DNA from: Saccharopolyspora shandongensis
Lineage (GTDB): Bacteria > Actinomycetota > Actinomycetes > Mycobacteriales > Pseudonocardiaceae
NCBI RefSeq assembly: GCF_900106995.1
Contig: NZ_FNOK01000045.1
Span: 1 to 64,000, forward strand
Direction of reading: 5' to 3'
Length of the DNA stretch: 64,000 nucleotides
The notes beneath the pieces were generated by a model. The model did not search any database, was not told the DNA's origin, and saw only the letters and a list, made by a program, of their open reading frames with translations. The number at the start of each line of letters is the position of its first letter. Positions within the stretch are counted from its first letter, which is position 1. Position numbers and translations under genes: made by a program. Positions 10,943 to 20,619 of the stretch are shown piece after piece.

Positions 10943-11242
10943 CGGCCCGGAGCGCCCTGCCGGTGTTTCCACCGGTGGGTTTCTCCGGGCCGCTTCCCGA
11001 ACCCGGCGTGCCTGTTACCAGGCACCGGGCTCTCCACACATCCCAGAGGGCGTTGGGTGTTCTCAGGCCGTGCTCGGCCAGGGCGAAGGGATCTTGGTTC
11101 CCCGGTAGGAGTAGTAACGGATCTTCACTCCTGCCGGGTTGAACAAGGTCATCTCGCCGGTGGCGGGCCACCATCCGTCGCAGGTGAATTGGCGGCGGAG
11201 TTCCTTCCAGTTGGTGCGCCGATGCTTGCGGCGAAGCCATAA
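10943..11242 (-). mobile_element. Group II intron 3' fragment with maturase tail
   Basis: The minus strand encodes the last ~58 residues of a group II intron reverse transcriptase/maturase (LWLRRKHRRTNWKELRRQFT, ending YYSYRGTKIPSPWPSTA), stopping at 11063. After it comes non-coding intron RNA sequence: GTGGAGAGCCCGGTGCCTGG, then CACGCCGGGTTCGGGAAGCG, then the ACCGGTGGAAACACCGG hairpin. These are typical of actinobacterial introns downstream of the ORF. The 5' intron domains and most of the RT are absent. The exact 3' splice point is not resolved; I place it near 10943. Confidence 0.8.
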
Positions 11243-12153
11243 CCTTGCGTCTCGTCTTTGGCCGCGTCGATGAAGGCCTGTGCCATGACTGACAGGGTCC
11301 GGCGGCTGTGCCAACCCACGCCGATGACGCGGGGGTGGATCCCGCTCAGGCGCCGCGCGTGTACGTCGGCCCGCTCGGGGAGAACGGCGAGTTGCGAAAC
11401 TACCGCAGCGGCGTAGCCGTGCGCTGCCAGGTCAAGCAGAGTGGCGTTGTGGTTGCTGCGGAAAACCACCCTGGACCTGTAACCGGGGCGTCCCGAGCGC
11501 GCCTCCAGGGTGTGCGGCGTCCGCAGGTGCGCATACGACATGAGCGGTAGGTCGGGGTAATCGTCCAGATTCACCGGGCCGTCCTCGCGGGCAAGTGGTG
11601 ACTGCTTTGACACCGCCAGCACATAGGGGTCCTCGATCAATGTCTCGGTGGCGAATGGTCCGTCTGGCATCGGGAAGACGACGAAGGTCAGATCCAGTTG
11701 GTCGGACTCGACCAGCTGAAGCAGATCGCCGTCATCAGGCAGTTCGGTCAGGACAACTTGTGCCTTCGGAAGTACGTCCCGCAGCTTCGCCAGGATCGGC
11801 GCGAGCAGACTCGATCCGACGCTCTCGAAGCAGCCGACCCGAAGAATCCCGGCGGCGCCCCTGGACAGCGCCCCAGCGTCCACCGCAACCCGCTGCATGG
11901 CGCCAGTGATCGTTTCTGCGTGCTGTAGCAAGAGCCGGCCCGCTGGCGTGAGTGTCACCGACTTGCCACCGGCTGAGCGCTCGAGGAGCTGGCTGCCGAT
12001 CAGTGACTCGAGCCGCTGGACGTGCTGGCTGACCGCCGACTGCGTGTACCCGAGTTGCGTCGCAGCCTCGGTGAACGAGCCGAAACGGGCTACATACGTC
12101 AAGGACACGAAGTGCCGAAGATCCAGCTTCATGTACGAGGGCAGAGCGTCCAT
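11149..12153 (-). CDS. LysR-family regulator, 3' end replaced
   Basis: A LysR-type regulator with the N-terminal winged helix at residues about 8-66 (HFVSLTYVARFGSFTEAATQ, LGYTQSAVSQHVQRLE) and a periplasmic-binding-like effector domain (ILRVGCFESVGSSLLAPILA). It is divergent from the oxygenase-lyase operon with 115 bp between starts, the usual layout for a LysR activator of that operon. Recognisable sequence ends near residue 304 (AFIDAAKDETQG), about the natural length of the family. The last ~30 codons overlap the group II intron tail in another frame, so the native stop was lost. Start at 12153; Met8 at 12132 is an alternative. It is probably still functional. Confidence 0.85.
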   Translation of the reverse strand: MDALPSYMKLDLRHFVSLTYVARFGSFTEAATQLGYTQSAVSQHVQRLESLIGSQLLERSAGGKSVTLTPAGRLLLQHAETITGAMQRVAVDAGALSRGAAGILRVGCFESVGSSLLAPILAKLRDVLPKAQVVLTELPDDGDLLQLVESDQLDLTFVVFPMPDGPFATETLIEDPYVLAVSKQSPLAREDGPVNLDDYPDLPLMSYAHLRTPHTLEARSGRPGYRSRVVFRSNHNATLLDLAAHGYAAAVVSQLAVLPERADVHARRLSGIHPRVIGVGWHSRRTLSVMAQAFIDAAKDETQGYGFAASIGAPTGRNSAANSPATDGGPPPAR

Positions 12154-12179
12154 GCCCCGACTCTCCCATAAGCAAGTCG

Positions 12180-12195
12180 AATATTTGTCAGTATT
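12180..12195. promoter_or_regulatory. Candidate LysR box between divergent genes
   Basis: AATATTTGTCAGTATT lies midway between the LysR start and the operon start. It has AATA..TATT arms and an ATA-N-TAT layout compatible with the T-N11-A rule. The arms are short, so this rests mainly on position and on being an AT-rich island. Confidence 0.35.
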
Positions 12196-12268
12196 TTTTG
12201 TCGCTGGATGTAATGGGAACCTTCGAGCAATGTGGTGCGCACAACACCATCTCCGAAGGAGTTACACC

Positions 12269-13078
12269 ATGACCACCACCAAGGTTACCCTCGGCGACGT
12301 CATCGATCTGGAGCGATACCCGATCGATCAGCTGAACAGCCGGAAGGGTCGCGCGCTGATCGACTTCTGTCACGCGTCGCTCGCCTTCGAAGGAGCATGC
12401 CAATTGGCTGGCTTCTTCCGTCCGGAAGCGGTCGATCGTCTGGTCGCGGAGGCCCAGGAGAAGCAGAGCGCGGCATACCGCACCGACGACACTCACAACG
12501 TCTACTTCGAGCAGGTGCCGTCAGAGAGCGCCGCCGACAACCCGGCCGCGGTCTTGCAGCACAGTTCTAAGCTGACGATTGCTTGGGACCTGGTCGGCGA
12601 AGACTCCCCGCTCCGGGTGGCCTACGAGTCTGACGAATTGACGACATTCCTGGGTCAGGCACTCGGGATGGAGACCTTCTACCGCTATGCAGATCCGCTC
12701 GGTGCCGCGTCTTTGATGATTTTCAACGAGGGCGACGAACTCGGCTGGCATTTCGACCGTTCACCCTTCGCGGTCACGGTCATGCTCCACCCAGTGGTTT
12801 TCGGCGGTGAGTACCAGTATTTCCACAACCTCCGCACGGCCGACAACCAGAACTCGTCCGGAGTGCTAGCTGCTCTTCGGGGCGAGCAGCCCGGGCGCAT
12901 CACTTTGGCCGGGGAGCCTGGCGCTCTGACCATGTTCCGTGGGCAACACTCGCTGCACCGCGTCACCCCGGTTGAAGGCGCCGAACCTCGCATCAACGCA
13001 GTCCTCTCCTACTCAGAGCGCCCCGGCGACAAGCTGAATGCCTTGACGCAACAGCTCTTCTACGGCCGCACGGCCTGA
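12269..13078 (+). CDS. 2OG-Fe(II) oxygenase, HxD type
   Basis: A 269-aa protein starting at ATG 12269 (GAAGGAG upstream). The double-stranded beta-helix core carries GWHFDRSPFAVTVML, giving metal ligands His161 and Asp163. The distal ligand is probably His230 in HSLHRVTPV, and Arg241 or a nearby Arg would bind 2-oxoglutarate. The overall pattern resembles the BesD/HalD amino-acid halogenase and hydroxylase group. Because the second ligand is Asp and not Gly, hydroxylation is expected, not halogenation. It is first in a four-gene operon with two lyase-fold proteins and a transporter. An amino acid or amine is a plausible substrate (inference). Confidence 0.8.
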   Translation: MTTTKVTLGDVIDLERYPIDQLNSRKGRALIDFCHASLAFEGACQLAGFFRPEAVDRLVAEAQEKQSAAYRTDDTHNVYFEQVPSESAADNPAAVLQHSSKLTIAWDLVGEDSPLRVAYESDELTTFLGQALGMETFYRYADPLGAASLMIFNEGDELGWHFDRSPFAVTVMLHPVVFGGEYQYFHNLRTADNQNSSGVLAALRGEQPGRITLAGEPGALTMFRGQHSLHRVTPVEGAEPRINAVLSYSERPGDKLNALTQQLFYGRTA

Positions 13079-13138
13079 CTTCGGGCCAGGCTTCGGGGCA
13101 GTGGTTCCAATGCGGAAGCTGGTGCTGAAGGAGATCTC

Positions 13139-14569
13139 GTGGTCACCCTTCTAGACGGCTCCTCACTCACGGTCGACGAACTGCTCCGGCTTGGCGTCCA
13201 GGAGCACCCCGAGATCACCATCGACGCGCAGGCCCGAGCCCGGGTGGCCGATTCTGCTGTCCTGGTCAACCAAGTGGTTCGACGTCGAGCGGTGTACGGC
13301 CGGACCACCGGTGTTGGTGCCAACCGCGACACCACAATTAGCGGCAACATCACCCACGACCTGCGGCTCCTGCGTAGTCACGCGACCAGCTCCGGGGAAG
13401 TGCTCGACCCGGTCACGACCCGGATGGCGATGATCGTGCGGCTCAACCAACTGCTGCACGGCGGCTCGGGAATGCACCCGGGCATTCTCGATGCTCTTGC
13501 CATCGCCATCCGGGAAAACCGGATCCCGGTGGTGCACGCCGCCGGTGCCATCGGCACCGGAGACCTGTCCGCGATGGCCGAGATCGCTCTCGGCCTGGCT
13601 GGCGAGACCACCCTCCGCGATGGCAGCCGAAGACCCTTGTGGAGGCCAACACCCGGTGATTCGTTACCGATCATTTCAACCAACGCGGTCACGATCGCCA
13701 GCACCTGTCAGGTACTCGGGCAACTCCGTCGCTGGATCACCCATCACACTGTGGCGGCCGGGCTCTCGTTCATCGCCGTTCGGGCGTCCGCGGAACCCTT
13801 GCAACCCTCGGTTCAGGAAGCCCGACCCCATCCTGGACAAGTCCGGGCGGCGGCCGAACTACGTACCCTCCTGAGCGGGATTGAGTTCCGGGCAGCACGT
13901 GTCCAGGACTCCTACGGGTTTCGCGCCTATCCGCAGGTGGCCGGCGCCCTGCTGGACAGCCTGGACGGCCTGGAGCGGGTACTCGTCACCGAGGCGAATG
14001 CAGCCGCGGAGAATCCACTGATCGACCTGGCCGCCCACGATGTCTTCCACAACGGCAACTTCCACGGGATATCGGTCGCCCTCGCCGTCGACCACGTCAA
14101 GCTCGCCCTCTCCTCACTAGCCCAGCTGTCGGTAGCCAGAGTCACCGACCTGTCATCGCCGGAGATGACGGGCCTGCCAGCCTTCCTCGCCGATGGCACT
14201 CCCGGCAGCAGCGGAATGATGCTGCTGGAGTACAACCAAGCCGCCGCACAGGCCGCCCTGCGGCAAAGCGCGCAACCGGCCACCCTGGGATCGGTCGTCA
14301 TCTCTCGAGGCACCGAGAACCACTCCAGCTTCTCGACCCAGGCCGCACGGCAACTACACCAGTGCCTGGAGTCGGCAACCGATGTGCTCGCCTGCGAACT
14401 CCTGGCCGCGATCCGAGCGCTCGACCTGCGCAACGAGCGACTCCCTGGCACCGGCCACCTGAGCGCCTATCTGCGGCGGATCGGCCGGGAACTCAACCAC
14501 GATCTCGCCGATCGATCACTCACCACCGACCTCGCCACGGTCCGCCACTTCCTGACCGCCGACCAATAG
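13139..14569 (+). CDS. Aromatic amino acid lyase-fold protein, altered MIO site
   Basis: A 476-aa member of the HAL/PAL/TAL family starting at GTG 13139, with AAGGAG just upstream. It keeps the catalytic tyrosine loop (VYGRTTGVG, Tyr53), GNFHGISVALAVDH, RVQDSYGFRAYPQVAG and the helical core. The MIO-forming segment, normally GSxGASGDL, reads GAIGTGDL at about 136-143. One residue is missing or Ala-Ser has become Gly-Thr. If Thr cyclises, a methylated MIO-like group could form; otherwise there is no electrophile. Classical ammonia elimination by the textbook mechanism is therefore not assured. It is cotranscribed with an oxygenase, a transporter and a second, more divergent lyase. Confidence 0.85.
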   Translation: MVTLLDGSSLTVDELLRLGVQEHPEITIDAQARARVADSAVLVNQVVRRRAVYGRTTGVGANRDTTISGNITHDLRLLRSHATSSGEVLDPVTTRMAMIVRLNQLLHGGSGMHPGILDALAIAIRENRIPVVHAAGAIGTGDLSAMAEIALGLAGETTLRDGSRRPLWRPTPGDSLPIISTNAVTIASTCQVLGQLRRWITHHTVAAGLSFIAVRASAEPLQPSVQEARPHPGQVRAAAELRTLLSGIEFRAARVQDSYGFRAYPQVAGALLDSLDGLERVLVTEANAAAENPLIDLAAHDVFHNGNFHGISVALAVDHVKLALSSLAQLSVARVTDLSSPEMTGLPAFLADGTPGSSGMMLLEYNQAAAQAALRQSAQPATLGSVVISRGTENHSSFSTQAARQLHQCLESATDVLACELLAAIRALDLRNERLPGTGHLSAYLRRIGRELNHDLADRSLTTDLATVRHFLTADQ

Positions 14570-14577
14570 GATCCCCG

Positions 14578-15903
14578 ATGAACCAGCCCACCCCAACGGA
14601 CGAAACGGGGACGGCCGAGGGCTCGATCGCCCTGGACCAAGTGCCCTTCGGACGATTCCACCTGAAAGTCACCGCCATGACCTTCGGAGCCAACTTCTCC
14701 GACGGTTACGCACTCGGAATCATCGGCAGCGCGCTCCCGCTGCTCACCGACCAATGGAACGTCAACGGGTTCTGGCAGGGAATGCTGGCCAGTTCCGCGC
14801 TGATCGGGCTGTTCTTCGGCTCGCTGATACTCGGGCCGATCGCCGACAAGATCGGCCGCCAACGCGTCTACGTGCTCAACTTCATCCTCATCGCCATCGC
14901 CTCACTGCTGCAGTTCTGGGCACCGAACGTAGAGACGATCTTCATCCTGCGATTGCTTATCGGGTTCGGCCTCGGCGCCGACTATGCCGTCGGGCCGACG
15001 CTGCTGTCAGAATTCGCGCCACGCAAATCCCGCGGCCTCATGCTCTCGTCCCTCACCGTGCTGTGGACGGTGGGCTATGTCATCGCCAACATCCTCGGCA
15101 CCTACGTGACCGTCGGGTCCGACACCTGGCGCTGGCTGCTCGCCTCCGGTTGCATCCCTGCCGCCATCGTGCTGGTCATCCGGATCGGCAGCCCGGAATC
15201 CCCAGGATGGCTGATGAGCAAAGGCCGTGCCGAGGAAGCCCGCGCCATCGTCACCAAATATCTGAAGGCCGAAAACGTCCGGATCCCCAAAACCCACACC
15301 GAGGACGCCGGTCAGTTCTCGGAACTGTTCAGCCCAGCACTGCGTAAGAACACCTGGTTCGGCATCTTGTTCTTCTCGGCACAGGTCCTGCCCTACTTCG
15401 CGATCTACACCTTCGTGTCGACGATTCTCGGGGCGATGAATGTGTCGAACGAAAACACCCAGAACGTGCTGATCAATTTATTCCTGCTCGTCGGCGGCGT
15501 CGTCGGCGTGTACTTCATCGACAAGATGCCGCGCCGCGGGTTCACCCTGTGGACCTTCGTGATCCTGGCAGGGTCACTGCTGGTGCTGGGCATCGTCGCA
15601 CATGCGAACCCGTGGCTGATGATGATCCCCTTCATCATCTACTCGTTCGTCATGTCGGGCGCCTCCAACATCACTCAGGTATATCCACCCGAGTTGTTTC
15701 CCACCAGGCTCCGCGGGACCGGTGTCGGCCTGCTCAACGCGACCAGCCGGATCAGCTCGGCCATCGGCACCTTCCTGCTCCCGATCAGCATCACCCATTG
15801 GGGCGTCAGCAACTCGATGTACTGGCTGGCCGCAGTGCTCGCCTTCGGTGCCGTGATCACCTACTTCTGGGCCCCGAACACCGAGTCCCAGAAACTCGTC
15901 TGA
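14578..15903 (+). CDS. MFS transporter of the lyase operon
   Basis: A 441-aa, 12-helix major facilitator starting at ATG 14578, 8 nt after the lyase stop, so translational coupling is likely. The loop 2-3 signature GPIADKIGRQRVYVL and a helix-4 region LIGFGLGADYAVGPTLLSEF place it near the aromatic-acid/metabolite:H+ symporters (AAHS/sugar-porter type). The loop 8-9 equivalent FIDKMPRRGF and the late PPELFPTRLRGTGVG motif are also present. It lies in the inner membrane and most likely imports the substrate of the two lyases and the oxygenase; export cannot be excluded. Confidence 0.85.
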   Translation: MNQPTPTDETGTAEGSIALDQVPFGRFHLKVTAMTFGANFSDGYALGIIGSALPLLTDQWNVNGFWQGMLASSALIGLFFGSLILGPIADKIGRQRVYVLNFILIAIASLLQFWAPNVETIFILRLLIGFGLGADYAVGPTLLSEFAPRKSRGLMLSSLTVLWTVGYVIANILGTYVTVGSDTWRWLLASGCIPAAIVLVIRIGSPESPGWLMSKGRAEEARAIVTKYLKAENVRIPKTHTEDAGQFSELFSPALRKNTWFGILFFSAQVLPYFAIYTFVSTILGAMNVSNENTQNVLINLFLLVGGVVGVYFIDKMPRRGFTLWTFVILAGSLLVLGIVAHANPWLMMIPFIIYSFVMSGASNITQVYPPELFPTRLRGTGVGLLNATSRISSAIGTFLLPISITHWGVSNSMYWLAAVLAFGAVITYFWAPNTESQKLV

Positions 15904-15949
15904 TTCCCCGTCGCTAACCTGAGCCACGTCGCTTCCGAGAGATACGTCC

Positions 15950-17440
15950 ATGATCAGTTCCGTCACACTCGGGTCCGCGCCGATCTCGTTCGAGGAGTTC
16001 GTCGCGGTCGCCCGCCACCACGCGACAGTGGAGTTCTCATCCGAATACCGAGAACGGGTCATCGGATCAGCGACTTTGATCGATCGTTTCCTCGCCGAGA
16101 ACCGACTCATCTACGGGGTGAATGCCGAACAGCTCCAGGAAAACATCGTGATGTCGCACGCGGTTTCCGTCGGGGAGCCGCTCTCCGAAGAACTTGTGCG
16201 CGCCATCCAGCTGATGACACTGATCAGTCTCGGCCAGGGCTTCTCCGGGACCCGTCTGGAGACTCTGGACCTGATCCGCGAGCTTTTAAACCGCCGCGTC
16301 ACGCCTGTCGCTCCTGGCAACGGATCGGTCGGGTATCTCGCCATCGAGGCGCATCTAGCTCTGGTGCTCATCGGCAGGGGCCGCGCCACCGTCGAAGGGC
16401 ACACCGTCGACGGTGCCGAAGCACTGCGACAGGCCGGACTCGCCCCGCGTCGGCTGCAGGCGAAGGAGGGCCTGACCCTTACCAACGGCTGCCACTCAGT
16501 CACCGGAATTTCAGTTCTGGCGGCCCACGACATCGCACACCAATCGCGCTTGGCTGACCTGCTCGCCGCGCTGGGTTACGAGGCGCTGAAGTGCACCACC
16601 CGATCCCTTGACCCGCGGCTACACGCTCTGCGCAAGCACCCCGAGCAAGCTGCCTGCGCGCGGAACCTGGAACGACTCCTAGACGGCAGCCAGATCGCTA
16701 AACGATTCCGGGACTACCGCGTTCAGGACCCGTACATGTTCCGAGCACTCGCGCAGACCCATGGCGCAGCGCGACGGTTCATCACTGACACCAGCAGGGT
16801 CCTCGCCGAGGCACTCGCGTCGGTCGGGGACAACCCCGTGCTGGTCCCCGACGGAGCCGGCGATGGTACCGCCATCATGGGCGGAAACTTCGACGGTACG
16901 TACATCGCCATGGCTGCTGACACGATCACCACAGACGCCGCGGTACTGGCGAAGGTCTCGGAACGGCGGACCGATCGGATGGTCAACAGTGCGTTCAGTG
17001 AGCTGCCAGCCTTCCTGGCGCCGACACCCGGCCTGAATAACGGCCTGATGATCCCGCAGTACACGGCTGCCGGGCTGCTGATGGAGATGCGCGCTGACTC
17101 TGCACCGGCTTCGGTCGACTCAGTACCAACCTCCGCCAACCAAGAGGACCCGGTCAGCAATGCCTATCTTGCCGCTCAGCAGTCCTATCGAGTAGCCGGC
17201 AAACTCCGCTACGTGCACGCGATCGAACTGCTCACCGCGACTCAGGCGCTCGATCTACTCGATGTCCCAGAACACAGTGCTCCGGCTGTACGGGCCATCC
17301 ACGACATGGTCCGGCAACGGGTTCCCTTCGCTGCCACCGACCGACTGTTCGGACTCGACATCGAAGCCACAGGCGAACTACTCAGAGGCGACGAGCTTCT
17401 CAACGCTGCCGAAGGCGTGGCTGGCCCGCTGGAGTTCTGA
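15950..17440 (+). CDS. Second lyase-fold protein without the MIO tripeptide
   Basis: A 496-aa HAL/PAL-family protein. Family landmarks are LIYGVN (Tyr55), LTNGCHSVTGISVLAAHD, RVQDPYMFRALAQTHGAARR, GDNPVLV and MGGNFDGTYIAMAADTI. Where the family has GSVGASGDLAPLAHLAL, this protein has GSVGYLAIEAHLAL (125-138). The three MIO residues Ala-Ser-Gly are precisely absent and the following Asp is Tyr. The loop after YGVN (normally TGFG plus ~15 residues) is also shortened, running directly into AEQLQENIVMSHAVSVG. The frame is intact over its whole length, so this looks selected, not decayed. It could be a partner subunit or a lyase with another mechanism. Confidence 0.85.
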   Translation: MISSVTLGSAPISFEEFVAVARHHATVEFSSEYRERVIGSATLIDRFLAENRLIYGVNAEQLQENIVMSHAVSVGEPLSEELVRAIQLMTLISLGQGFSGTRLETLDLIRELLNRRVTPVAPGNGSVGYLAIEAHLALVLIGRGRATVEGHTVDGAEALRQAGLAPRRLQAKEGLTLTNGCHSVTGISVLAAHDIAHQSRLADLLAALGYEALKCTTRSLDPRLHALRKHPEQAACARNLERLLDGSQIAKRFRDYRVQDPYMFRALAQTHGAARRFITDTSRVLAEALASVGDNPVLVPDGAGDGTAIMGGNFDGTYIAMAADTITTDAAVLAKVSERRTDRMVNSAFSELPAFLAPTPGLNNGLMIPQYTAAGLLMEMRADSAPASVDSVPTSANQEDPVSNAYLAAQQSYRVAGKLRYVHAIELLTATQALDLLDVPEHSAPAVRAIHDMVRQRVPFAATDRLFGLDIEATGELLRGDELLNAAEGVAGPLEF

Positions 17441-17927: not shown

Positions 17928-19110
17928 TGTGGGGTTCCAGAATCGGCTCCCCATGCCTGACCTGCGACGTTAAGCTATGCGCTCGTACTCGTTGATCAAG
18001 CCGCCAAGCACCGGTCGACGTTTGATCCGCTCACTGTCGAGGTCTGCAACTGGGTAACTCGGCCGTGGTGGCCGAAGCTCGCGGGCACGGTGCGGCCGGC
18101 GCCCGTTGTAGTGTCGGATGTACTCCGTAAGCACTGCACGCAGGTGCCGTTCACCAAAGATCAACAGGCGGTCGGTGAGTTCGGCTCGGACAGTGCGCAC
18201 GAACCGTTCAGCAAAACAGTTCGCCCGCGGGCAGCGTGGGGGAGTCTTGACGACGCGGATACCTACATCAGCAAGGACCGCATCGAACGACGTGGTGAAC
18301 TGGCCGGCTCGGTCCCGGACGAGGAATCGGAAGTCGGTGATGTCATCGCCGAGGTCCATCAGCAGGTTGCGGACCTGCTGAGTGGTCCACGCCCCGTCTG
18401 GGTTCGTGGTCGTGACCAGCAGGTGCACACACCGGCTGCCGACCTCCATCACGAAGAACACGTAGACCCGTTTGAGGGTGACCGCGCAGTCCACGTGAAA
18501 GAAGTCGCACGCCAGCATGGTCGAGGCCTGCATGCGCAGGAACTGTCGCCAGGTCGTGTCGGTGCACCGGGTCGGTGCTGGAGGGATGCGCAATCGCTTG
18601 AGAACGCGGCGGATCGTCGAGGCGCCCACTCGATAGCCGAGCTTGAGTAGCTCACCCTGGATCCTCTGGTATCCCCAGGTGTGATTCTCCTTGGCCATGC
18701 GCTCGATCAACACGGCGACATCGTCATCGACGGGCGGGCGGCCGATGCGGTGTGGATATGTCCACTTCCTGGCAAGCAGACGACGATGCCAGCGCAGCAT
18801 CGTGCCTGGCGTGACCAACCGGTTCGCTCGCAGCACCTTCGGTAACAACCGGATTAGCGCGGCGAAGACCGCCCGGTCGGCCCAGTCCATCCGGGGTTTC
18901 GGGTTGGTTCTGCGCAGCACCTCGTGACGCAGCACCAGCAGTTCGACGTCCTTCGACACCGACGAGCGGCCGAGCAACACCAGCCAGCCCACAAGCCGTA
19001 TGAAGATCAGATAAACCAGACGCAGGGACACGGTTCGCGATCACGCCCTGCCCGGCGAGCGCAGCGATAGCCGCAGGTCGGACACGCGGGCCAACTTCTG
19101 GAACCCCACA
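17928..19110 (-). mobile_element. IS with rve-type transposase, copy 1 (intact)
   Basis: The element is bounded by inverted ends TGTGGGGTTCCAGAA (17928) and TTCTGGAACCCCACA (ending 19110). The pairing extends two more bases outward (CC/GG), so the exact end may be 17926-19112. Length is about 1.18 kb with one transposase gene on the minus strand. The same ends bound a decayed copy at 34758-35945 in the same orientation. No clear target duplication is seen. Its right end abuts a LuxR remnant. Confidence 0.85.
17970..19031 (-). CDS. Transposase with integrase (rve) core
   Basis: A 353-aa intact transposase. The N-terminal part has an IS481/IS3-like helix-turn-helix (MLRWHRRLLARKWTYPHRIG, then [20 protein letters not shown]). 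The catalytic core shows DDE residues in context: [20 protein letters not shown] (first Asp), [20 protein letters not shown] (second Asp) and NCFAERFVRTVRAELTDRLL (Glu). It ends in YNGRRPHRARELRPPRP, typical of these elements. Complete frame and complete ends suggest it could still be active and could act in trans on the copy at 34758. Confidence 0.9.
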   Translation of the reverse strand: MSLRLVYLIFIRLVGWLVLLGRSSVSKDVELLVLRHEVLRRTNPKPRMDWADRAVFAALIRLLPKVLRANRLVTPGTMLRWHRRLLARKWTYPHRIGRPPVDDDVAVLIERMAKENHTWGYQRIQGELLKLGYRVGASTIRRVLKRLRIPPAPTRCTDTTWRQFLRMQASTMLACDFFHVDCAVTLKRVYVFFVMEVGSRCVHLLVTTTNPDGAWTTQQVRNLLMDLGDDITDFRFLVRDRAGQFTTSFDAVLADVGIRVVKTPPRCPRANCFAERFVRTVRAELTDRLLIFGERHLRAVLTEYIRHYNGRRPHRARELRPPRPSYPVADLDSERIKRRPVLGGLINEYERIA

Positions 19111-19447: not shown

Positions 19448-20619
19448 ATGCGTGAGGCAGTGATCTGTGAGCCGTTGCGGACGCCGGTGGGGCGTTACGG
19501 CGGCGTGTTCAGCAACGTCCCGGCGGCCGACCTTGCGGCCGGCGTGCTGCGGGAGTTGTTGCACCGCACTAAAATCGACGGGTCCGATGTGGACGATGTG
19601 ATCTTCGGGCAGTGCTACCCGAACGGGGAGGCGCCGGCGATCGGGCGGGTCGCCGCGCTGGACGCGGGCCTGCCGGTGACGGTGCCGGGCCAGCAGCTGG
19701 ACCGGCGGTGCGGGTCCGGGCTGCAGGCGGTCATCGACGCGGCGATGCGGGTGCAGACCGGCATCTGCGACCTGGTCATCGCCGGTGGTGCGGAGAGTAT
19801 GAGCCAGGCCGAGCATTACGCGCTGGGTCTGCGTTTCGGGTTCAAGGGCGACTCGACGCCGTTGTCGGACCGGATCGGGCGCGGCCGGGTTACCGCCGGT
19901 GGCAAGCACTACCTGGTGCCGGGCGGGATGCTGGAGACCGCCGAGAACTTGCGTAAGGAGTACTCGGTCAGTCGCAGAGCGCAGGACTGGCTTGCGTTCG
20001 ACTCGCACCAGCGTGCCGTCGCCGCGCAGGCGGAGGGCCGCTTCGCCGACGAGGTGCTGGTTGACCAGGACGAACACCCGAGTGCTGACATCTCGCTGGA
20101 GGCGCTGGCCGTGTTGCGGCCGGTGCGGTGGTCAGTCGATCCGGGAGCCACCGTCACTGCCGGCAACGCCAGCGGGCAGAGCGACGGCGGCGCCGCCTGC
20201 ATCGTGACCACGCGCGAGCGCGCGGACGAGCTGGGGCTGCGGCCGCTGGCGCGGCTGGTGACGTGGGCGGCGGCCGGGGTCGAGCAGTCCCGGACGGGCA
20301 TCGGCCCGGTGCCCGCGACCGCGGTGGCGCTGGAGCGCGCGGGACTGGAACTGGGGGACCTGGACCTCATCGAGCTCAATGAGGCGTTCGCGCGCAGGCA
20401 TTGGCGGTGACGACGGCCTGGAAGCTGGCGGAAGCCGATTTCGAGCGGGTGAACGTCAACGGCTCGGGTATCTCGCTGGGCCACCCGGTGGGTGCCACCG
20501 GTGTGCGGATTCTGGCCACGATGCTCCGCGAGCTCGACCGCCGTCAGGGCCGCTATGCGCTGGAGACGATGTGCATCGGCGGCCAGGGTCTGTCGGCAGT
20601 CTTCGAACGAATCGCCTGA
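19448..20619 (+). pseudogene. Acetyl-CoA acetyltransferase (thiolase), one frameshift
   Basis: The first frame (19448-20410) gives a thiolase N-domain with the acylation cysteine in QQLDRRCGSGLQAV (Cys88) and the NEAF motif at its end. The second frame (from about 20398 to 20619) continues with [34 protein letters not shown] (catalytic His) and [11 protein letters not shown] (catalytic Cys). The join at TTCGCGCGCAGGC needs one extra base. All active-site residues survive and no other damage is visible, so this is either a very recent mutation or a sequencing error. The product would condense or cleave acetoacetyl-CoA-type thioesters. AAGGGAATGT precedes the ATG. Confidence 0.8.

Follow-up and report, generated by a model that had tools for sequence, protein, structure and literature searches.

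We propose that a short operon of the actinobacterium Saccharopolyspora shandongensis encodes two lyases that would eliminate trimethylamine from histidine betaines (ergothioneine and hercynine), and that would do so without the 4-methylideneimidazole-5-one (MIO) group of their family. The operon lies within positions 1 to 64,000 of contig NZ_FNOK01000045.1 (assembly GCF_900106995.1), a stretch of 64,000 nucleotides referred to here as the window. Both enzymes belong to the histidine ammonia-lyase (HAL, HutH) fold and both have lost the residues from which MIO is made; they are termed the TGD and the SVGY lyase after the letters found at that site. In the reading that we favor, at a probability of about 0.58, both lyases would use histidine betaines, the major facilitator superfamily (MFS) protein encoded between them would import the substrate, and the upstream 2-oxoglutarate (2OG)-Fe(II) oxygenase would be a separate module. 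The features concerned are as follows.

11149..12153, minus strand: LysR-family regulator (PF03466 and PF00126), divergent from the operon.
12269..13078, plus strand: 2OG-Fe(II) oxygenase of the HalD family (PF23169, 34.2 bits against a cut-off of 26), with an ATG at 12269 and AGGAG upstream.
13139..14569, plus strand: TGD lyase, predicted MIO-free relative of ergothionase (PF00221, 364 bits; ergothionase clade 99/97; AlphaFold model).
13544..13567, plus strand: GAIGTGDL codons GAIGTGDLSAMAEIAL (Gly136-Leu143), the MIO loop one residue short.
14578..15903, plus strand: MFS transporter with an ATG start, of the aromatic-acid/H+ symport or organic-cation type (PF00083/PF07690).
15950..17440, plus strand: SVGY lyase, predicted second MIO-free line, with the Tyr loop truncated in the window copy (PF00221, 465 bits; SVGY clade 98/94; AlphaFold model).
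16120..16124, plus strand: junction of a 15-residue in-frame gap (Asn58/Ala59) that removes TTGFGxN.
16322..16336, plus strand: GSVGY codons GSVGYLAIEAHLAL (Gly125-Tyr129), the MIO loop three residues short.

The four plus-strand genes follow one another with tight spacing and short gaps, in the order oxygenase, TGD lyase, MFS transporter and SVGY lyase, and the gene set is in place as originally predicted. Both lyases score far above the PF00221 cut-off (27.3 bits) and below that of the HutH equivalog TIGR01225 (296.4 bits for TGD and 454.9 for SVGY against 539.15). This family needs MIO because ammonia leaves poorly, as is established for HAL and for the phenylalanine and tyrosine ammonia-lyases. 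The MIO segment reads GAIG-TG-DL in the TGD lyase and GSVG-Y-LA in the SVGY lyase, as the original prediction had it, and the x-Ser-Gly precursor tripeptide is absent from both (GTGD and SVGY). A displaced Ala-Ser-Gly, which that prediction had raised as evidence to the contrary, lies near neither segment when both are aligned to 16 HutH rows, one more PF00221 row and the Pseudomonas putida HAL. These variants are not chance or sequencing noise, because GTGDL, within the pattern G-x-[IV]-G-T-G-D-L, is present in all 29 other TGD loci read and a Tyr replaces the tripeptide in 11 other loci. The MIO residues are lost in both lines, and the equivalents of HAL His83, Arg283 and Glu414 are retained in all aligned members (22/22 TGD rows and 11/11 SVGY rows), as they are shared with the P. 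putida enzyme (1b8f/1gkm).

On comparison of sequences and models, the TGD lyase is predicted to be part of a new, large actinobacterial branch beside a known kind of enzyme, ergothionase, represented by the Treponema denticola (6s7j/6s7q) and Burkholderia sp. HME13 enzymes. In the passages of a 2026 paper that bear on it, ergothionase is said to release trimethylamine from ergothioneine and to contain no MIO (PMC13405746, citing Maurer 2019). The loop of 6s7j, read from the search in which it was the best solved match of two plasmid-borne relatives (270 and 275 bits), is SSIGEGDITT; the HAL loop, GSVGASGDL, is longer by one residue. The TGD loop (IG-TG-DL) matches that of 6s7j (IG-EG-DI) in length, being likewise one residue short and without Ser. 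The similarity extends beyond the loop. GVGxN[K/R] follows the Tyr in 21 of 22 TGD and three of four ergothionase-like rows and in none of 18 HutH rows, the exceptions being L092 and L126, and the HAL Asn195-Gly-Thr site is Ser-[Ser/Thr]-Asn in 20/22 TGD and 0/18 HutH rows and Ser-[Ser/Cys]-Asn in 3/4 ergothionase-like rows. The trees include 22 TGD proteins out of 42 and, for HutH, 16 rows, with the remaining HutH loci left out. With the loop columns removed, the TGD proteins and the four ergothionase-like rows are joined (Shimodaira-Hasegawa-like approximate likelihood ratio test, SH-aLRT, 97), and they still form a clade (bootstrap 99, SH-aLRT 97) when the Tyr-loop, Asn195 and Glu414 columns are removed as well and L128, present in the loop-free tree, is dropped as a long branch. 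Within this clade TGD is sister to ergothionase rather than nested within it. The AlphaFold model of the window TGD lyase (mean predicted confidence, pLDDT, 82.7) has template modelling (TM) scores of 0.91–0.92 to 6s7j chains and 0.88–0.89 to P. putida HAL chains, although Foldseek places the HAL chains first by E-value. Thus the different elimination chemistry that the original prediction had put forward is supported. The evidence to the contrary that it had named, characterized lyases with the same variants, exists in architecture for GTGD, namely ergothionase, and not for SVGY. The window TGD lyase differs from ergothionase in that identity is ~24% and in that no urocanase-family gene (thiourocanate hydratase) is found within 6 kb of it.

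TGD lyases recur in the order to which S. shandongensis belongs. Among 397 genomes searched, 49 (its own among them) hold 50 places that score above 200 bits, and the next match is at 183 bits; the single member read from the group below 200 bits, the C61 gene of the same genome, has a canonical CSGD. The nearest relative of the window protein (L086, 50% identity) has an OpuC-type ABC transporter 66 bases away, and a Rhizobium lyase with IGAAD (L126) adjoins an OpuAC protein and HutC. On a Burkholderia arboris replicon, an ergothionase-like lyase whose start resembles a signal peptide by eye lies downstream of urocanase-family and S-Me-THD-like genes (L124:2752-8512).

The SVGY lyases are predicted to form a second, apparently undescribed variant of the HAL fold that lacks the MIO residues; their loop is shorter than that of ergothionase by a further two residues. 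Outside the window they are found at 11 loci (L026, L027, L028, L029, L030, L031, L032, L034, L041, L047 and L048), in Clostridium, Maledivibacter, Faecalimicrobium, Synergistota, Dethiosulfovibrio, Acidaminobacter, Curtobacterium, Priestia, a deltaproteobacterium and metagenome-assembled genomes of Tissierellia and Clostridiaceae; L028 carries two copies, one of which reads SVAY. Ten aligned SVGY proteins group with the window copy in a single clade (98/94) that is separate from ergothionase. At the HAL Tyr280 position, which is Tyr in 18/18 HutH rows, Leu occupies 8/11 SVGY as well as 4/4 ergothionase-like rows. The alignment (A1) and tree exclude L032 (Curtobacterium) and L041, where the lyase is split over frames. 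In the approximately unbiased (AU) test, grouping SVGY with ergothionase (p-AU 0.008) or with TGD (p-AU 0.009) is rejected, but a common origin for every MIO-free row remains compatible with the data (p-AU 0.064), so that two losses of MIO are favored, not proven. The AlphaFold model of the window SVGY lyase (pLDDT 84.1) resembles HALs and aminomutases more closely than it does ergothionase (TM 0.88–0.89 to HALs and 0.84 to ergothionase). Among actinobacteria the SVGY type is rare. A search of 394 genomes of the class and 396 of the phylum (E <= 1e-86) matched 5 and 21 besides its own, and the 19 high-scoring loci read (5 + 14, leaving 7 others unread) all have ASG, CSG or SSG before the Asp; more divergent members could fall under that threshold. 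Curtobacterium is the only actinobacterial host from a species-wide contig scan that used one sequence and six peptide patterns and so finds close relatives only; this orthologue (L032:9959-11558) is 62% identical in its better part, lies in two frames in the assembly, and has a full TTGFGDN loop.

The original prediction had both lyases keeping the Tyr loop, which is not so for the SVGY copy in the window. It has Tyr55-Gly56 and lacks the following 15 in-frame residues (TTGFGDN... in relatives) between Asn58 and Ala59. All 15 columns are occupied in 10/10 relatives of alignment A1, among them L030, whose contig starts just before these columns and whose Tyr is outside it. With 15 Tyr-loop residues missing, the window copy may be inactive; the gap may be a true deletion or an assembly error. 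It is an even bet that this copy is dying or dead, in which case the clade would be real and only the TGD lyase, the MFS transporter and the oxygenase would matter in this operon. The gap is unique among the 11 SVGY proteins, the window copy also differs at six sites that are constant in the other 10, and downstream of it lie a transposase-like gene (rve_3; 17970-19031) and a thiolase gene (19448-20410) encoding only 320 residues, in which the C-terminal domain match ends at profile position 53 of 123. Against this, the frame is open with no stop, the His83, Arg283 and Glu414 equivalents are kept, six differences fall inside the leave-one-out range of the other rows (0–10), and the gap may be an assembly error.

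The neighborhoods of the two lyase types elsewhere are suggestive of quaternary-amine uptake and of an imidazole product. They were compared by tblastn, with a limit of 6 kb, for 41 TGD loci (38 from genomes of the order, two plasmid-collection records and one paralogue in the same genome), 11 SVGY loci and 20 canonical HutH control loci. Near TGD lyases the recurrent neighbors are an OpuC-type ABC transporter (19/41), a cysteine-dioxygenase-like (CDO-like) gene (18), an amidohydrolase (18), and LacI (17), IclR (13) and RpiR (7) regulators, with a window-type MFS gene in three and HutU in two; in the controls HutU is present at 17 of 20 loci, the OpuC-type ABC at 4 and RpiR at 2, with no CDO-like, amidohydrolase or MFS gene. 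SVGY lyases have transporters at 9/11 loci, of the BCCT (L031, L034), SSF (L027, L028, L041, L047) and MFS (L026, L032, L048) families, and HutU at L032 and at L048, which also has HutI and an agmatinase-family gene. Homologues of the window MFS protein, itself matched by TIGR00895 and TIGR00898 below the cut-off of each, thus adjoin SVGY lyases at these three loci and TGD lyases at three others (L089, L090, L091). The EgtU/OpuC-type betaine ABC transporter found near TGD lyases elsewhere was not found at the window, where the MFS gene is present instead.

The mechanism that we favor is that MIO was dropped from the HAL fold in both lines because the substrate, a histidine betaine, would itself supply a good leaving group in its trimethylammonium. 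The retained active-site residues would take the beta-proton and trimethylamine would be expelled, yielding an imidazole acrylate. The ergothionase-like TGD lyase would most likely act on ergothioneine or hercynine; the SVGY lyase, as a separate line, would most likely convert hercynine to urocanate, to be passed on to HutU. The S. shandongensis genome encodes a single methyltransferase of the EgtD family (PF10017) together with two urocanases, so that the organism may synthesize hercynine and is probably able to metabolize urocanate. A bolder form, which we regard as possible but doubtful, is that SVGY enzymes are a second, independently evolved MIO-free C-N lyase, with a conserved Tyr for the tripeptide, that yields urocanate and trimethylamine from hercynine in Firmicutes, Synergistota and Actinobacteria, that TGD is its actinobacterial counterpart on the ergothioneine side, and that the two together make up an undescribed histidine-betaine route.

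Several observations weigh against the betaine proposal, beginning with the Tyr-loop gap just described. A plain profile of the TGD family places 6s7j only tenth (262 bits), behind HALs (281–314) and AdmH (264.5). BCCT and SSF transporters carry other solutes too. HutU is absent within 6 kb from 9/11 SVGY and 39/41 TGD loci, and 22 of the 41 TGD loci have no OpuC-type ABC gene in that range, five of these 22 being on stretches shorter than 12 kb. The reference proteins of the context comparison came mostly from TGD loci, with HutI from L048 and the oxygenase from the window, which tilts it toward TGD over the controls. Finally, the OpuC-type ABC near HutH in 4/20 controls fits histidine as well as a betaine, so that this context is suggestive only. 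In these four loci (L139, L141, L145, L146) it stands near canonical hutH-hutU and may carry histidine itself in some actinobacteria. The OpuC-type ABC as proof of a betaine substrate is accordingly weakened. In a comparison of binding proteins, which does not decide the point, the L104 protein scores ~78 bits against EgtUC chains, below choline- and nicotine-sensor proteins (80–95). According to PMC9732360, the ergothioneine transporter EgtU is a binding protein of the osmoprotectant type and discriminates between ergothioneine and hercynine ~10,000-fold.

The TGD lyase, the amidohydrolase and the CDO-like gene occur together in 18 of 41 TGD loci (L050, L052, L101, L103, L105-L107, L109-L115, L118, L119, L121, L123), in most cases accompanied by LacI, and frequently by IclR and the OpuC-type ABC. 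We regard this as a candidate ergothioneine-degradation cluster, in which the CDO-like enzyme may oxidize the sulfur atom of ergothioneine or thiourocanate. One of the 18 is in the same genome (L052, C38:101828-103198), as a second TGD lyase. SVGY lyases of anaerobes have recurrent neighbors of their own, a protein of ~315 residues (L027:6780-7730, L028:7029-7967, L030:1362-2348, L031:13159-14103), for which a scan of the L028, L030 and L031 copies shows a 4Fe-4S domain in each, and a 180-residue protein (L027, L028, L029, L041) with no Pfam match in the two scanned (L027, L028).

The oxygenase at the head of the operon matches the family of HalD/BesD-type 2OG enzymes (PF23169). In this family HxG marks a halogenase and HxD a hydroxylase. 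By that rule the window oxygenase, which retains its iron-binding His-x-Asp (HFD, within GWHFD), is read as a hydroxylase; the Asp is not replaced by Gly or Ala as in the HalD halogenase, and halogenation is not expected. Matches at E <= 1e-20 occur in 45 of 394 genomes of the order, including its own, all but the best two places being 29–37% identical. The best relative outside its own genome (50% identity; L150) has a LysR-like gene that is divergent by eye and no lyase nearby. A choline/carnitine acyltransferase follows the oxygenase in three of four distant loci read (L170, L172, L173), one of which is the second copy of the same genome, and suggests quaternary-amine substrates for the oxygenase family; in the fourth (L171) the gene was not resolved by the gene caller. 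A window-type 2OG gene was found within 6 kb of none of the TGD (0/41), SVGY (0/11) or control (0/20) loci. Since the oxygenase is beside neither lyase type elsewhere, it and the divergent LysR gene are taken as a separate module that was recruited here and whose substrate may be the same betaine or one related to it. Of the original question whether the lyase variants form clades that always accompany this oxygenase, the clades stand and, in the loci read, the co-occurrence does not. The same counts, together with the acyltransferase loci and the lyase-free L150, make improbable a single pathway in which the oxygenase first hydroxylates or otherwise activates an amino acid and the two lyases then act on its product, even though the oxygenase is upstream in the same operon and HalD-family enzymes act on free amino acids.

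Slightly less probable again is that the TGD lyase still forms an MIO-like group from Gly-Thr-Gly, with Thr rather than Ser dehydrated, and is an ordinary aromatic ammonia-lyase or aminomutase. The alignment permits G-T-G-D to be set against A-S-G-D with the gap upstream, as all 22 aligned TGD rows have the Thr and 21 of them have an Asp two positions later. However, the third Gly is lacking in three of the 22 rows (GTAD or GTAE), and at the same site the rows like ergothionase, the enzyme reported as MIO-free in the source cited above, have EG, EA, QA or AA. The printed 6s7j chain, which has no X, is weak evidence here; MIO is printed as X in the HAL chains 7tqr, 6v6h and 1b8f and as plain ASG in 1gkm and 1gkj, so the letters alone are no proof of MIO absence. 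Very improbable is the heteromer of the original prediction, with shared active sites that need both lyases, since, although the two genes share an operon and HAL-family active sites are assembled from several subunits, the types form separate clades and no fetched stretch with a readable motif (74 TGD, 12 SVGY and in addition L041, and 77 canonical xSG-D, several holding the same gene and all with limited flanks) contains two of them, the window being the only one to pair TGD with SVGY in one operon. Both the heteromer and an obligate oxygenase partnership were rejected on co-occurrence across the fetched stretches and context loci.

MIO chemistry counts as the defining mark of these enzymes, and the SVGY entries with an annotation that we have seen bear the name histidine ammonia-lyase. 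A literature search, which did not extend to the primary ergothionase papers, found no MIO-free member other than ergothionase, and the 2026 paper places ergothionase in a few genera on the basis of BLAST with one sequence, with its own caveat, in the text concerned, that divergent homologues are unaccounted for (PMC13405746). Two clades that lack the MIO residues suggest that there was at least one shift within the family to substrates that carry their own leaving group. Should those substrates be histidine betaines, the genes would mark the breakdown of ergothioneine and hercynine in actinobacteria and anaerobes, and would be a source of trimethylamine.

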